This document shows positions 4,298-62,888 of a stretch of 64,000 nucleotides of DNA, piece after piece. The DNA lies in the NCBI RefSeq assembly GCF_016900375.1, contig NZ_JACJKB010000001.1:186001-250000 (forward strand). The letters are read 5' to 3'. The notes beneath the pieces were generated by a model, which was not told the DNA's origin, did not search any database, and saw nothing but the letters and a program-made list of their open reading frames with translations. The translations under genes and the position numbers were made by a program. The stretch comes from Collinsella tanakaei. GTDB taxonomy: Bacteria; Actinomycetota; Coriobacteriia; Coriobacteriales; Coriobacteriaceae. The stretch's first letter is position 1. The number at the start of each line of letters is the position of its first letter.

Positions 4298-4358
4298 ACC
4301 ACTCCTCGCTCCCGCAGGCCCATACCTCCGTCTTAGCATATCAATGCGGGCGGGGTAC

Positions 4359-5489
4359 CTAACCGAGATGCTCTCCGTGCTCGACCTTTAGCGACGGGTC
4401 GAATGTCTTGATGCAGATAGAGTTCTTCCCGTTGCGCTTCGACGTATACAGGGCGTTGTCCGCCTGCATCATAAGGCCCTCGAGCGACACGTCCTGGCTG
4501 CGTGCGCAGACGACGCCTACGCTGCAGGTCAGGCGCTCTCCGATCGCCGCCTTAGACCTGCGGGCGAATTCCTCCCGAATACGGGTGAAGCGCTTCTGGA
4601 GCACGGCGTCGTCCACCAGGCTGTCCAGCAGCACGAGGAACTCGTCGCCGCCGTAGCGGGCGATGATATCGGAAGGGCGGAACTGCACCGACAGCAGACG
4701 GCCGAGCTCGGCGAGCGCACGATCGCCGGCCTGATGCCCGCGGGAATCGTTGACGTCCTTGAAGTCGTCGAGGTCGATGAAGGCGAGCGAGCACGAGACC
4801 TCGGGGTTCATGGAGCCGATGTAGGAGCGCGCACGCTCCATGAAGGCACGGCGGTTATAGAGGTTCGACAGCGTATCGCGCGTGCTCAGGCGCTCGTAGC
4901 GCGCCTTCACGTCGTAGGAGCGCAGACGAAAGCTCATGACCATGCGCGACAGGCAAAGCGAGAACAGGATGCCCGCCACCATGCCGAAGAGATCGAACTG
5001 CGCGATCTCGGGATCCTTGACCGTCACCACGAGCACGCAGTAGACGGCCTCGGCGAGCGCGAACAGCCCAAGCCCATAGCGGTCGGGAAGGATGAACAGA
5101 CCGGTCAGGGCGACGCACACGAGCTGCACGAAGATGCTTGGGTTCGAGGGCCCGCCGACCGTATCGAGCAGGATCGCGAAGGTGTACAGGAAAACCTCGA
5201 ACAGGATGCACAGGGCGGTGACGCCCCAGGGAGCCGCATGGCGCAGCCCGAGCCAGCAGATGGCGCACACGCTGATGCTCGCAAGCAAAAACGCAATATG
5301 ATAGGGGGACGGCTGCCAGTCCGAGATGAGAAGCGTAGCGGATACCATCAGGACCGCCAGAAGCACGATGACCATGATGGTGACCAACCTGAGGAACCGC
5401 GCGTTGTCGGCAGCGATCTCGCGCCGGCCTTCGACAAAATACCGCCGCTTGCTTGCCATATAGCCTTTCAGAGCGCTCAGCACCCACAT
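4359..5489 (-). CDS. Membrane-bound diguanylate cyclase (GGDEF)
   Basis: The product is 376 residues. About six hydrophobic segments lie between residues 34 and 187, followed by a GGDEF domain (about 200-360) with an exact GGDEF motif at 280-284. An RxxD inhibitory-site motif (RPSD, 271-274) lies five residues upstream, so product feedback inhibition is expected. The enzyme makes c-di-GMP from two GTP. The membrane part resembles no sensor domain I can name. The ATG at 5489 is preceded by GGAGGG; a second ATG at 5459 is possible. It is the first gene of the minus-strand set with the HD-GYP and HPt genes. Confidence 0.92.
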   Translation of the reverse strand: MWVLSALKGYMASKRRYFVEGRREIAADNARFLRLVTIMVIVLLAVLMVSATLLISDWQPSPYHIAFLLASISVCAICWLGLRHAAPWGVTALCILFEVFLYTFAILLDTVGGPSNPSIFVQLVCVALTGLFILPDRYGLGLFALAEAVYCVLVVTVKDPEIAQFDLFGMVAGILFSLCLSRMVMSFRLRSYDVKARYERLSTRDTLSNLYNRRAFMERARSYIGSMNPEVSCSLAFIDLDDFKDVNDSRGHQAGDRALAELGRLLSVQFRPSDIIARYGGDEFLVLLDSLVDDAVLQKRFTRIREEFARRSKAAIGERLTCSVGVVCARSQDVSLEGLMMQADNALYTSKRNGKNSICIKTFDPSLKVEHGEHLG

Positions 5490-5814
5490 CAAGGGACATC
5501 CCTCCACAACGGCCGCGCAGGCCGCGATGTGAACCCGACCAGGGGATCTACGTTGATAATGAGATAGTAGTCTACCCATACGGAGGATGCGCCTGCAGGG
5601 CGTTTAACGAAGCAACAAACAGGCTAAACGGTTTGTTGAAGCTCGGAATCAAAGTGGTTCAGCCGCTAAGACGCACGCGTTGTAAAACTATAGTGAGGTG
5701 CGAGATGCCCTGATATAGTGGGGTGTCATTTACGCATGGTAACGCTTGCGGTCGGAGGTGGATGCCCATGCACAACGCAGGTACGGGCCGCCACATGGCC
5801 GAAGGCGGTCGACT
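5490..5814. other. Divergent intergenic region upstream of GGDEF and VTC genes
   Basis: No gene is seen in these 325 bases. An inverted repeat, CAACAAAC / GTTTGTTG (5613-5620 with 5631-5638), could be an operator or a weak hairpin. Two TATAGT hexamers are visible in the stretch around 5688-5720 on the plus strand, but neither has a convincing -35 partner. Promoters for both divergent transcription units should lie here. Confidence 0.4.
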
Positions 5815-34488: not shown

Positions 34489-37400
34489 ATGTTGAGAATG
34501 CTGCGGGCGGTCGGAATCACGATCGCGCTTCTGTTCGCCGCGAGTATCACGGGGATTCCGGGGTCCCCCATATTGGAGGCTCAAGCTGCCGAAATCGTAG
34601 CAGAGGGCGATTCGAACCTTCGTGGCGAATTCCACTGGGAGCTTGATTCCAAGGGGACCTTCACGATGAGCGGAGAGGGGAGTCCGCCCAGCGTATCGCT
34701 CGTTACGGGAGCTCCCAAGTGGGAAGATTATAAAGATCAGATCAGACGCGTTGTCATTGAAGACGGCATCTGGTCGACCGGCGATCTAAGCTTTGAAGGC
34801 TGCACGAATCTCACTGAGGTGACATTCGCCTCGAGCGTCACCACCATAGGCTCAGGAGCATTTAAGGGCTGTACCAAGCTGAAGACGATACAGTTTCCCC
34901 GCGCGCTTGAAACGATTGATTATGACGCCTTTCTGGGCTGTACGGGCCTAACCGAACTCACCTTTCCCGACTCGATCGCCTCGATCAACAGCTCAGCATT
35001 TTCCGGCTGCACAGGGTTGAAGGAGCTGACGTTTCCCACTGACACCGACATCGGATACAAAGCGTTCTTCGGATGCGCTGCCCTGCAGAGCGTTGTGCTC
35101 CCGAACGGCGAAAACGGCAGTGTCGGCCTGAATGCATTTGCCGAATGTCCCAACTTGAAGACGGTGTACTGGCCGCTGGAGCTGACGTTTGCCAATTCCG
35201 CCTTTATAGATTCGCTCAACCTGACCGTCTACTACGAGGGCACGTTCGAACAATGGGAATCCATTGCCACACATTTATTCGGCGAGAAGGTTCCAGATGG
35301 AACGATAGTCAAATACAACAGCGGCATGCCTGGGGAGGAAACCGATCCCGATCCAGAGGAGCCTGACCACGAGCTCACCACGCCCAAGCTTCAAAGCGTG
35401 GAGAACCGTTCCGGCGGCATCCTCATTAAGTGGTTCGGAGAAGCTTCTTATCCCGATGCCACATGGTGGCTTGATAGCGGGTTCTACGTTCTGAGAAAGA
35501 GCGGCAGCGGCGATTACGAGCGTATCGCGACGGTAGATGACGCCGACGCTACATCCTACCTTGACACCGATGTCATGCTTGGCACCACGTACACCTATAC
35601 CATTCAGCGCTTTTCGAGCGGCGAGGTCAGTGAATACGATATAACGGGCCTTACAATCACACGCAAGGAGGCCATCGATAACGTAGCGAGCTATCCGAAC
35701 GACAACCTCGGATGGAGCGTAGCTAACAATCTTGCCAATTTCGGCAGGAGCGTCGACAACCCCATCGACGATGAGCGGTACGAGGAAGTGCTCGGAACGA
35801 AATTCATCGATAACGCTTCTGGAAAGCTCAACCAATTCGTCAATCGACACAAGCAGAACGGCGGATACTGCTTCGGCCTGTCCCTCCTCGCCGCAGCGCA
35901 ATACAATGGTCAGATCGACCTGGCCATATTGTTTGACGACCAAGATTTCTCCGGACAATCGAAGGACAGCAAGCTTGCTAACGGTGCGATTACCACCATT
36001 GTGAAATCTGACTCAACAGGCAGATACTACGCGAAGATGGAGAACGACCGGCTCGTCAATATCATCGAGCGCGCACATATATCGCAGTACACCAAGGAAG
36101 TCAAAGCCTCCCAGATCTATACGAAAGCCCCCAACTATGAAGGATTGCTTCATTATCTCCGTGAGGACAACATCAAGCCGCTCCTAGTTGGGCTCAGCGG
36201 AAGCGCCGACCACGCCGTACTGACCTATCCGCAGATAGAGCCGGAGCGCATCTCCGACAACCAATACAAGATCTACCTATACGATCCGAACGTTCCACAG
36301 ATCGGCAGCGAGAGCACGCTCGTACCGTATGCGCTGGAGGGCAAACTGTCGGATTACTACACGAGCGGCATGTCATACCTCATCCTGAACACCGACACGG
36401 GAGACTGGTCGTACTACAACCCCAGCAAGGGCACCTCGCCGCAGATTAGCAACGGCTACTACGATGTGGGCATGTCTTTTGATCTCGACGATAAGGGCAA
36501 CCATCTGTTGCGCCACGAGACCATCCGCTTCTACGACGTCTCGAAGATCTCCAATACGATGATCAACATCATCATGGGCTCTATCACCGGAACGCCCTCG
36601 AACTTCATCATCGTCGACGACATCCCGCAAGAAGGTTCCGGGGTGCTTGCGATCACCGATATCGATAGTGGGGATACGATCATGACCGCTTCGGGCGCTC
36701 AGTCCGGGGGTGCACCCAAGCTCACGCTTTCCAGCGAATACGTTGAAGACTACCAGGTCGGAGGAGACGACGGCAACATGCTGTTCCTCTGGCTATCGGA
36801 CAGCTGCGGTGCGATCAAGACCCAAGGTGGCAGCGTCAATGCAACGTACTATTCCGATGGAACCATGTTCAACGTAGTCTGCAAACGAGCGGGCAGCGCT
36901 TCCTTCGATCCCGCAGCCGCAACACTATCAATCCAAGTTGACGAGGCAGCGGACATCGAGATGGACGTACAGCGCAACTCGCAGATGGATGATACCCGGG
37001 ATGCAAAGCGCGTGACCATATCTACCTACCTCAATGCAGGAGATAAGACCACGATGACCGTCCCCAAATACGGCTTGCTTCAGCTCTCGGGACCCGAAGG
37101 CCAGCGATATGACGCCTCCTATAGCAAGGAAACCGAAAGCGGGAGCATGGGCGGAGCCATGCCCAATGTCACCGCCCAGGAAATCCTTGCGCACTGGGGT
37201 GAACCCGTCGAGAACATCTTCAGTGACGTCTCGTCTGACGCCTACTACGCCGATGCGGTGATCTGGGCTGTCGATAACGAGGTGACGACGGGTACGTCTT
37301 CCACCACGTTCTCGCCAGAAGACCCCTGCACGCGTGCGCAAGCGGTCACCTTCCTATGGAGAGCCGCCGGCTGCCCTGAACCGGAGGGCACGCGCAACCC

Positions 37401-37737
37401 CTTCACCGACGTTGGAAGTGGCGATTATTACCACGACGCGGTTCTTTGGGCGGTCGAGCAGGGGATAACCACCGGCACCTCCGACACAACGTTCAGCCCG
37501 AACGACACCTGCACGAGGGCGCAGATCGTGACGTTCCTCCACCGCAGCGAGGGATGTCCCGACATCGGCGCATACATCACCTTCATCGATGTTCCGCTGA
37601 ATGAGTACTATGCGGATGCCGTCAGCTGGGCTGCCACGCTCGGGATCACCACAGGCACCTCGCGAACGCATTTCAGCCCGAACATCCCATGCACCCGCGG
37701 ACAGATCGTGACGTTCCTGCATCGTACCTACCGGTAA
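34489..37737 (+). CDS. Secreted BspA-like LRR / cysteine-peptidase-like / SLH surface protein
   Basis: The product is 1,082 residues. A signal peptide ends near residue 33 (AQA-AE). Residues about 100-260 are BspA-type leucine-rich repeats (FEGCTNLTEVTFASSVTTIG and similar). A Pro/Glu linker and a fibronectin-III-like domain follow. Residues about 440-620 have a papain-like pattern: Cys461 in GGYCFGLS, His575 in SADHAVLTY and Asp599/Asn601 in YLYDPN. Three SLH repeats (from about 908 to the end; FSDV, YYADAV, TRAQ) should bind it to the cell wall. Likely an adhesin or surface enzyme. The coding sequence is visibly more A/T-rich than its neighbours and sits between palindromes A4 and A5, suggesting acquisition. 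Confidence 0.88.
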   Translation: MLRMLRAVGITIALLFAASITGIPGSPILEAQAAEIVAEGDSNLRGEFHWELDSKGTFTMSGEGSPPSVSLVTGAPKWEDYKDQIRRVVIEDGIWSTGDLSFEGCTNLTEVTFASSVTTIGSGAFKGCTKLKTIQFPRALETIDYDAFLGCTGLTELTFPDSIASINSSAFSGCTGLKELTFPTDTDIGYKAFFGCAALQSVVLPNGENGSVGLNAFAECPNLKTVYWPLELTFANSAFIDSLNLTVYYEGTFEQWESIATHLFGEKVPDGTIVKYNSGMPGEETDPDPEEPDHELTTPKLQSVENRSGGILIKWFGEASYPDATWWLDSGFYVLRKSGSGDYERIATVDDADATSYLDTDVMLGTTYTYTIQRFSSGEVSEYDITGLTITRKEAIDNVASYPNDNLGWSVANNLANFGRSVDNPIDDERYEEVLGTKFIDNASGKLNQFVNRHKQNGGYCFGLSLLAAAQYNGQIDLAILFDDQDFSGQSKDSKLANGAITTIVKSDSTGRYYAKMENDRLVNIIERAHISQYTKEVKASQIYTKAPNYEGLLHYLREDNIKPLLVGLSGSADHAVLTYPQIEPERISDNQYKIYLYDPNVPQIGSESTLVPYALEGKLSDYYTSGMSYLILNTDTGDWSYYNPSKGTSPQISNGYYDVGMSFDLDDKGNHLLRHETIRFYDVSKISNTMINIIMGSITGTPSNFIIVDDIPQEGSGVLAITDIDSGDTIMTASGAQSGGAPKLTLSSEYVEDYQVGGDDGNMLFLWLSDSCGAIKTQGGSVNATYYSDGTMFNVVCKRAGSASFDPAAATLSIQVDEAADIEMDVQRNSQMDDTRDAKRVTISTYLNAGDKTTMTVPKYGLLQLSGPEGQRYDASYSKETESGSMGGAMPNVTAQEILAHWGEPVENIFSDVSSDAYYADAVIWAVDNEVTTGTSSTTFSPEDPCTRAQAVTFLWRAAGCPEPEGTRNPFTDVGSGDYYHDAVLWAVEQGITTGTSDTTFSPNDTCTRAQIVTFLHRSEGCPDIGAYITFIDVPLNEYYADAVSWAATLGITTGTSRTHFSPNIPCTRGQIVTFLHRTYR

Positions 37738-61382: not shown

Positions 61383-61746
61383 GGGAGAGCTTCGCCTCAC
61401 CCGCTCCCTTATCGCCACAAGAGGCGGCCGACTGGTACCAGCCGGCCGCTTTCCTGTTTGTTTGACATCCTTCTTTGGACGTCTGGTACTGGAATGCCAT
61501 TCGACCGTACGGCCGCCATGAAACTGGGCAGGGGGCCGCTCGCGGGGAAAGTGGTCTATACCTCATAACGCATCTGAATTGAAGTGATATCCGTAACATT
61601 TTCCCTGAACGGTCGTTACCTTACGAAATGCTAACAAGAGCATTGCCGTACCCTCATATAGCAGGAGCGGGGAGCTTTGCGTGCGCATGATAGCCTAGAA
61701 CAGGGCAAACGCCCACAGGCGCGATCGATAAGGAGGAGACAAGATC
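61383..61746 (+). terminator. Intergenic region with coaBC terminator
   Basis: GCGGCCG (61424-61430) pairs with CGGCCGC (61443-61449), followed by TTTCC; the loop contains CTGGTACCAG. No gene is seen in the 364 bases. From about 61570 the sequence becomes A/T-richer and presumably carries the promoter of the SLH gene, but I find no clear -35/-10 pair. The motif CTGGTACTGG recurs at about 61485. Confidence 0.6.
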
Positions 61747-62607
61747 ATGCGCATCTCGAAGAACATCCGCCATGCGATCGTGGCGGGCCTTGCAGGCGCG
61801 ACCGTTGCCGCCGCCACCTTCGCACCCGCGATGGCATTCGCCGACTACAAGGGGTATCAGGATGTAGCCGCAAACCATTGGGCGGCGTCCAGCGGCGTCA
61901 TCGACTGGGCCGACCGCAACGACATCGTCAACGGATTCCCCGATGGCTCATGGGGCGCCGACAAGCCGATCGACCGAGCCCAGGCTGCCGCTATCCTCTA
62001 CAACCTCGCCGGGAACCCTCCGGTGACGGGCTCCCCGCAGTTCTCCGATGCCGACACACTTGGATGGGCGAGGACTGCCGCAACCTGGGCCCAGCAGCAG
62101 GGCATCTTCACCGGCACCCAGCATGCTGACGGCCGCGTGACATTCGACCCGTGGGGTCCGCTCACCCGCGAGCAGGCGGCAAAGGTTCTCTGCGTCCTTT
62201 CCGGCGGCAAGGGATCCAATCCTGCCATTCTCGACCAATTCCCCGATGGGGACTCCGTTTCCGGCTGGGCGAAGAGCGTTGTCGCCTGGGCCGCAAAGAA
62301 CGGCATCATCGGCAACGGCGGCAGCCTGAATGGCAACAGCGTCTGCACCCGCGCCGAGTTCGTATCGATGACCCGCACCACCGACAACCGTATCATGCAC
62401 ATCATCGACGACCATACCGACTGGGATGACGACTGGGATGACCGGTTCGACGACTGGGATGACGACTGGGATGATGACTGGGACGACGACTGGGATGATG
62501 ACTGGGACGACGACTGGGACGACGACCACGACGACTGGGACGACGACCGGGACGATGACGACGACCACGACGATGACGACGACTGGGACGATCGCTGGGA
62601 CGACTAG
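61747..62607 (+). CDS. Secreted SLH-domain protein with Asp/Trp-repeat tail
   Basis: The product is 286 residues. A signal peptide ends near residue 32 (AMAFA-D). Three SLH-like repeats cover about 35-215 (YQDVAANHWAASSGVIDWADRNDIVNGF, then IDRAQAAAILYNLAG and two further units), which should anchor it to wall polymers. From residue 225 to the end the chain is almost only Asp and Trp: repeated WDDD units with about eleven Trp, later interrupted by Arg and His. The tail is extremely acidic. I know no domain like it; metal binding or carbohydrate contact are guesses. TAAGGAGGAG precedes the ATG, so strong translation is expected. Confidence 0.9.
   Translation: MRISKNIRHAIVAGLAGATVAAATFAPAMAFADYKGYQDVAANHWAASSGVIDWADRNDIVNGFPDGSWGADKPIDRAQAAAILYNLAGNPPVTGSPQFSDADTLGWARTAATWAQQQGIFTGTQHADGRVTFDPWGPLTREQAAKVLCVLSGGKGSNPAILDQFPDGDSVSGWAKSVVAWAAKNGIIGNGGSLNGNSVCTRAEFVSMTRTTDNRIMHIIDDHTDWDDDWDDRFDDWDDDWDDDWDDDWDDDWDDDWDDDHDDWDDDRDDDDDHDDDDDWDDRWDD
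62419..62604 (+). repeat. Tandem 12-bp coding repeat (WDDD units)
   Basis: The unit GACTGGGATGAC and close variants (GAT/GAC synonymous changes) recur in frame with a 12-base period, best preserved from 62419 to about 62540. Slippage here would change the protein by whole WDDD units without a frameshift. Confidence 0.9.
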
Positions 62608-62640: not shown

Positions 62641-62722
62641 GAACGGCCATCTGGTATCAGATGGCCGTTCTTTCGCAAACGAGAAGGCCCATTTTGGTCA
62701 TCTGGTACCAGATGACCAAAAT
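62641..62722. repeat. Two tandem hairpins with a shared CATCTGGTAYCAGATG core
   Basis: Hairpin 1: 13-bp stem 62641-62653 with 62658-62670, loop GTAT, then TTTC; it probably terminates the SLH transcript. Hairpin 2: 14-bp stem 62691-62704 with 62709-62722, loop GTAC. Both share the same central 16 bases, although their outer stems differ. The next 55 bases hold nothing visible. Confidence 0.85.

Positions 62723-62811: not shown

Positions 62812-62888
<77 letters not shown>

Follow-up and report, generated by a model that had tools for sequence, protein, structure and literature searches.

Aspartate- and Tryptophan-Rich Tail of a Probably SLH-Anchored Collinsella Protein, with Similar Tails on Other Coriobacteriales Envelope Proteins

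The Locus and Its Encoded Protein

The window, the whole 64,000-nucleotide stretch of Collinsella tanakaei DNA that was analyzed, contains an open reading frame of 286 amino acids that spans exactly 61747-62607 of the plus strand in the window's ORF list. The gene, here called the SLH-tail gene, is flanked by coaBC and by a tRNA-Pro/pgsA pair, and comprises or adjoins the following features:

61608-61746, plus strand: upstream block with promoter region, hairpin in the 5' UTR, and ribosome-binding site, which aligns across three Collinsella species that differ in their flanks farther out
61703-61714, plus strand: 5' UTR hairpin GGGCAAACGCCC in the upstream block
61730-61737, plus strand: ribosome-binding site AAGGAGGA in the upstream block
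61747-61842, plus strand: signal peptide (residues 1-32), read from the sequence, with the cut expected after AFA
61843-62406, plus strand: three SLH domains (residues 33-220; PF00395)
62407-62604, plus strand: Asp/Trp tail (residues 221-286), defined by composition, of net charge -44 and ending in DDRWDD
62641-62670, strand not assigned: palindrome ACGGCCATCTGGTATCAGATGGCCGT followed by TTCTTT, found as a self-inverted match and read as the likely terminator of the gene
62812-62888, minus strand: tRNA-Pro (ggg), from ARAGORN

A terminator scan did not detect the palindrome at 62641-62670. Two other intergenic palindromes (61424-61449 and 62691-62722) have the core CTGGTAC/TCAG in common with it, the arms of the three being different but self-complementary, and all three are likely terminators with a common tip.

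The encoded protein has a signal peptide recognizable by eye, with a basic start, a hydrophobic Ala-rich stretch, and an AxA site, and this signal peptide is kept in orthologs. Pfam recognizes three stretches of SLH (PF00395; E-value 2e-17, 63.3 bits versus a gathering score of 20.8), and the motif arginine of each repeat (R77 in DRAQ, R141 in TREQ, and R202 in TRAE) is invariant in the three Collinsella orthologs, the third being replaced by lysine in two other genomes (G542 and G526). An AlphaFold2 run on a 3-row alignment was unusable (mean pLDDT of 36.6), and a 17-row alignment was used instead; in the resulting model the SLH part has a pLDDT of about 95, and the tail, with a pLDDT of 44-52, is predicted to be disordered. 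The model matches the SLH domains of Sap (3pyw) and those of SpaA with bound 4,6-pyruvyl-ManNAc (4,6-Pyr-ManNAc), with a best Foldseek E-value of 1.3e-8 to 3pyw and VIA Z values of 19.4-20.6 for 3pyw, 6bt4, and most SpaA-SLH entries, and the sequence search agrees with these structure matches.

SLH proteins and CsaB are functionally coupled (PMC6030368). Of the 43 Collinsella genomes, all six that are rich in SLH proteins (G000, which is the window's genome, G008, G017, G020, G032, and G064, the last counted as SLH-rich on 18 first-look candidates) have CsaB-like matches scoring no less than 66 bits; beyond these, such matches are found only in G026, which has a few SLH matches, and G058. The CsaB-like protein of the window's genome matches PF04230 and scores 79.6 bits, below the NCBIfam CsaB cut-off of 213. 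This pyruvyltransferase (G000, C1:11000-13200), also present in SLH-rich Collinsella, is 553 amino acids long and has extra N- and C-terminal parts. Given the SLH trimer predicted by both sequence and model, the tracking of the CsaB-like gene with SLH-rich genomes, and the established coupling of the two, we consider it likely that the protein is anchored to the wall through its SLH trimer.

The signal peptide, the same-fold SLH trimer (Z of about 20), and the CsaB-like enzyme in the genome are likenesses to SLH surface proteins such as Sap of Bacillus anthracis and SpaA of Paenibacillus alvei (PF00395). The window protein differs from these in carrying neither a lattice domain for an S-layer nor an enzyme, and only the 66-residue Asp/Trp tail is present besides the SLH domains; no S-layer assembly domain was seen in it. 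The window encodes a second SLH protein (34489-37737) of 1082 amino acids with a repeat-rich, leucine-rich-looking start and C-terminal SLH domains, and elsewhere in the same genome (C45:129000-131000) an SLH protein is split over two reading frames, apparently by a frameshift.

The tail consists of 47 Asp, 11 Trp, 3 Arg, 3 His, 1 Phe, and 1 Thr residues, with no Glu, Lys, or Gly. SLH is the only Pfam match of the window protein: no model covers the tail, and neither RsgI_N nor RsgI_M is matched. In the DNA the tail corresponds to a 12-bp tandem array at 62418-62604 (TRF; 16.1 copies, 77% matches). A first-pass annotation of this locus had described an SLH-anchored protein ending in 62 residues of WDDD units plus a few Arg, His, and Phe, unlike common motifs and with a 12-bp DNA period. 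The anchoring is supported by the Pfam match, the sequence search, and the model's fit to solved SLH trimers, and the lack of a Pfam model for the tail and the presence of the TRF array agree with the other two statements; the make-up of the tail was also correct, although its length is 66 residues and it includes one Thr. Coding of the repeat in the antisense or other frames was considered and dropped, as those frames are low-complexity mirror images.

Conservation of the Tail and Linkage of the Gene to tRNA Loci

The gene is present in 3 of the 43 Collinsella genomes (G000, G008, and G017) and is thus dispensable in the genus. A profile search of 395 Coriobacteriales genomes identified four further genomes with an SLH protein bearing a D/W-rich tail, all from genus g13 of family f5; the nearest named relative of the window protein is that of C. 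ihumii GD8. The SLH parts of the seven orthologs are 51-82% identical and are under purifying selection (dN/dS of 0.13-0.27 at dS of 0.8-1.0). The tails are 66 residues long in the window protein and 72-100 residues in the other six, contain 67-72% Asp and 14-19% aromatics with no Lys and at most two Glu, have net charges of -44 to -65, and in all seven cases end in WDD.

The seven tails follow a finer grammar. Arginine stands directly before W, Y, or F in 34 of 42 cases (versus approximately 6.8 expected from shuffled tails), and aromatics avoid each other, with 7 pairs at most two residues apart compared with approximately 30 expected. The pooled tail codons are 328 GAC and 105 GAT (433 Asp) and 6 GAA/GAG (Glu), whereas the SLH-encoding regions of these genes contain 96 Asp and 42 Glu codons. 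These dipeptide and codon statistics are inflated by tandem duplication, repeat-copied counts being non-independent events; because repeats copy themselves, conservation across two families is a firmer argument against an artefact than are the counts. The tail occurs in two other Collinsella species and a second family, so it is not the isolated slippage artefact, absent in close relatives, that the first-pass annotation had allowed for. The length variation anticipated there is seen between species, as tails of 66-100 residues, and the suggested search of relatives for (WDDD)n tails finds them on the SLH orthologs but, as described below, not confined to SLH proteins. A general acidic slippage product was also considered and dropped, on the evidence of tail conservation in the orthologs and the strong excess of Asp over Glu codons.

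The upstream block travels with the gene: its core (61620-61657) is found once in each of the three gene-carrying Collinsella genomes and in none of 40 others. In Collinsella genomes without the gene, coaBC, tRNA-Pro, and pgsA are mutually adjacent. All seven orthologs, which occupy at least three different genomic places, have tRNA genes in their vicinity, versus 1 of 14 other SLH loci; the linked tRNAs are Pro in Collinsella and Ala/Met and/or Val/Ala in family f5. In G008 the gene lies on the opposite side of tRNA-Pro relative to the window, where the 3' end of tRNA-Pro and its terminator are repeated in inverted orientation over 59 bp (4324-4382 and 5713-5769 of the locus). This inverted copy flanks the gene and the complete tRNA-Pro, an arrangement that an insertion or inversion at the tRNA would leave behind. 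In C. ihumii the gene is near a different tRNA-Pro. No integrase was seen; the tRNA linkage and the moving upstream block fit a gene that has relocated repeatedly at tRNA loci. C. ihumii has a different, large SLH protein next to its tRNA-Pro(ggg)/pgsA pair (G017:C9:29800-36200), with no coaBC in that stretch.

Similar Tails on RsgI-Type and Other Proteins

The tail type is wider in Coriobacteriales and is apparently undescribed in the families and literature searched: our literature search returned nothing on WDDD tails, aspartate-rich SLH proteins, or Asp-rich surface tails, and a looser search returned only RTX proteins and unrelated work. Of 396 genomes in the phylum, only 4 contain the pattern WDxxWDxxWDxxWD and none contains the reversed control pattern, which argues that the tail is not a product of chance. 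One of the four (G399) encodes an unrelated SLH protein of a distant actinobacterium in which the W-D stretch WDDDWDDDWDNGWDNGWDHCWDNG lies N-terminal to the SLH domains (C35, contig start). The pattern DDDxWDDD occurs in 37 of 395 Coriobacteriales genomes, and the matches examined are mostly C-terminal tails of three kinds of protein: SLH proteins, an RsgI-like membrane protein (RsgI_M, PF23750; RsgI_N weak), and a lipoprotein with RsgI_M and PepSY domains that is encoded by the gene after the RsgI-like gene. A SigI-like gene was read upstream of the tailed RsgI-like gene in G008 and G046, the protein of G008 having a best E-value of 1.9e-47 to the NCBIfam SigI model, below the curated cut-off. 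The row of SigI-like, RsgI-like, and RsgI_M-PepSY lipoprotein genes, the last two encoding Asp-tailed proteins, recurs in many Coriobacteriales genomes (e.g., G008:C23:25500-30500 and G046:C10:15000-20500). Asp/Trp-rich stretches also occur in a membrane protein that has a zinc ribbon and a Ser/Asp/Trp end, in a secreted PPC/DUF5648 protein, and in two further proteins, both short (loci in genus g281 of family f5, G532, G503, and G045).

The likeness of the window protein to RsgI-type anti-sigma factors (PF12791/PF23750, with an extracellular disordered region) lies in the tail type alone: Coriobacteriales members of that family end in tails of the same composition, but the window protein has neither an RsgI domain nor a transmembrane anchor. 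The tails of 21 RsgI_M-PepSY lipoproteins contain 62-71% Asp together with W and R and no Lys, yet Arg-aromatic pairing is not enriched in them (20 observed versus 20.8 expected). The SLH-protein and lipoprotein tails thus have composition in common and differ in finer grammar, and what looks like one module may be convergence on composition. Some Collinsella RsgI-like tails are Asp-rich with little or no Trp. Both an SLH-tail protein and a tailed RsgI operon are present in G008; the D/W-tailed RsgI pair was not found in the window's genome, where the RsgI_M protein ends in a His-rich stretch.

For Bacillus subtilis RsgI, the extracellular disordered region is proposed to reach the inside of the wall and to detect defects there (PMC13059805, PMC10202637). 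Similar tails on RsgI proteins thus suggest that tails of this type interact with something in the envelope.

Possible Roles of the Displayed Tail

The protein is real, its structure and conservation are well supported, and its SLH anchoring is well supported by homology; wall location, cation binding, and sticker behavior we infer. Because the tail is the sole part of the mature protein beyond the SLH anchor, we take it to be the payload. The reading that we tentatively prefer, as slightly less than an even prospect, is that of a portable, disordered, polyanionic aromatic tail displayed on the wall, with probable holding of cations and weak multivalent contacts. The small secreted protein would be held noncovalently by its SLH trimer on a pyruvylated polymer of the wall, and the disordered tail, strongly acidic and dotted with aromatics, would be displayed as its sole payload. 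The Asp runs may act as charged spacers and the evenly spaced Trp, Tyr, and Phe residues, often after Arg in the SLH-tail orthologs, as stickers; the tail would most likely hold divalent cations at the wall surface and contact wall polymers, tails of its own kind, or cationic molecules from outside in a weak, multivalent manner.

A disordered chain with a charge of -44 to -65 should gather divalent cations, and evenly spaced aromatics with neighboring arginines are typical of weak multivalent contacts. RTX and EF-hand calcium binders resemble the tail in being Asp-rich and, possibly, in binding calcium, but the tail lacks Gly, the GGxGxDxxx nonapeptide, and the DxDxDG loop. Eukaryotic Asp-rich disordered proteins, with mineral-binding or calcium-storing acidic tails, likewise combine very high Asp with expected disorder; the window tail differs in its regular Trp/Tyr/Phe and Arg residues, and we do not claim homology. 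We infer an order of preference for the role of the tail in which cation binding precedes peptide capture and peptide capture precedes tail-tail contact.

The tail looks like a reusable surface part. On a broader reading, possible but doubtful, it would be a common envelope device of Coriobacteriales, with the Asp/Trp/Arg tail placed on the wall surface (SLH proteins), at the membrane (lipoprotein), and on RsgI, and with sensor and displayed tails reading or sharing the same ligand, for example wall-bound divalent cations or cationic peptides. The tail adds a recurring low-complexity module with a simple grammar to bacterial surface biology, and its presence on RsgI-type sensors makes it feasible, in common gut bacteria, to ask what is sensed in the wall by disordered tails outside the cell.

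Peptide capture would make the tail a decoy, a wall-held aromatic polyanion that keeps antimicrobial peptides or host proteins of cationic character from getting as far as the membrane. The charge of -44 to -65 with interspersed Trp, Tyr, and Phe, display through the SLH anchor in a gut genus, and the recurrence of this composition on an anti-sigma factor for wall stress, where it would suit peptide sensing, are all consistent with this role, but no resistance genes or peptide-related partner adjoin the SLH-tail gene and membrane-near lipoprotein tails would be a poor shield; we regard it as unlikely. Contact of the tails with one another or with wall partners, through Ca2+ bridges between Asp runs and Arg-aromatic or aromatic-aromatic pairs, might create cross-links at the surface or connect the wall layer with similarly tailed membrane proteins. 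Sticker-like spacing, the Arg-aromatic pairs of the SLH-protein tails, and the joint presence of the SLH-tail protein and a tailed RsgI operon in G008 point in this direction; against it, the window's genome lacks the D/W-tailed RsgI pair, like-charged tails would need bridging cations, and the Arg-aromatic rule does not extend to the lipoprotein tails, so that we consider such cross-linking, with partners in the wall or at the membrane, improbable.

It is still harder to credit that the acidic tail acts within its own protein, mimicking the anionic pyruvylated ligand to fill the SLH grooves during secretion until displaced at the wall. The grooves of the matched structures bind a carboxylate-bearing sugar and the tail directly follows the third SLH domain, but SLH proteins elsewhere need no tail of this kind, proteins that lack SLH domains carry similar tails, and the model contains no confident tail structure. 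Least probable, and disfavored, is passive, functionless filler from replication slippage of the 12-bp unit: the tandem DNA array, the variation of tail length and register among species, and the drift in aromatic type would accord with it, but seven genomes from two families have retained the tail while their SLH parts are 51-82% identical, codons for Glu and Lys and stop codons are avoided despite the common third-base changes seen in the codon counts, the WDD end is fixed, W, F, and Y interchange though W to F or Y takes two base changes, and unrelated envelope proteins carry similar tails.
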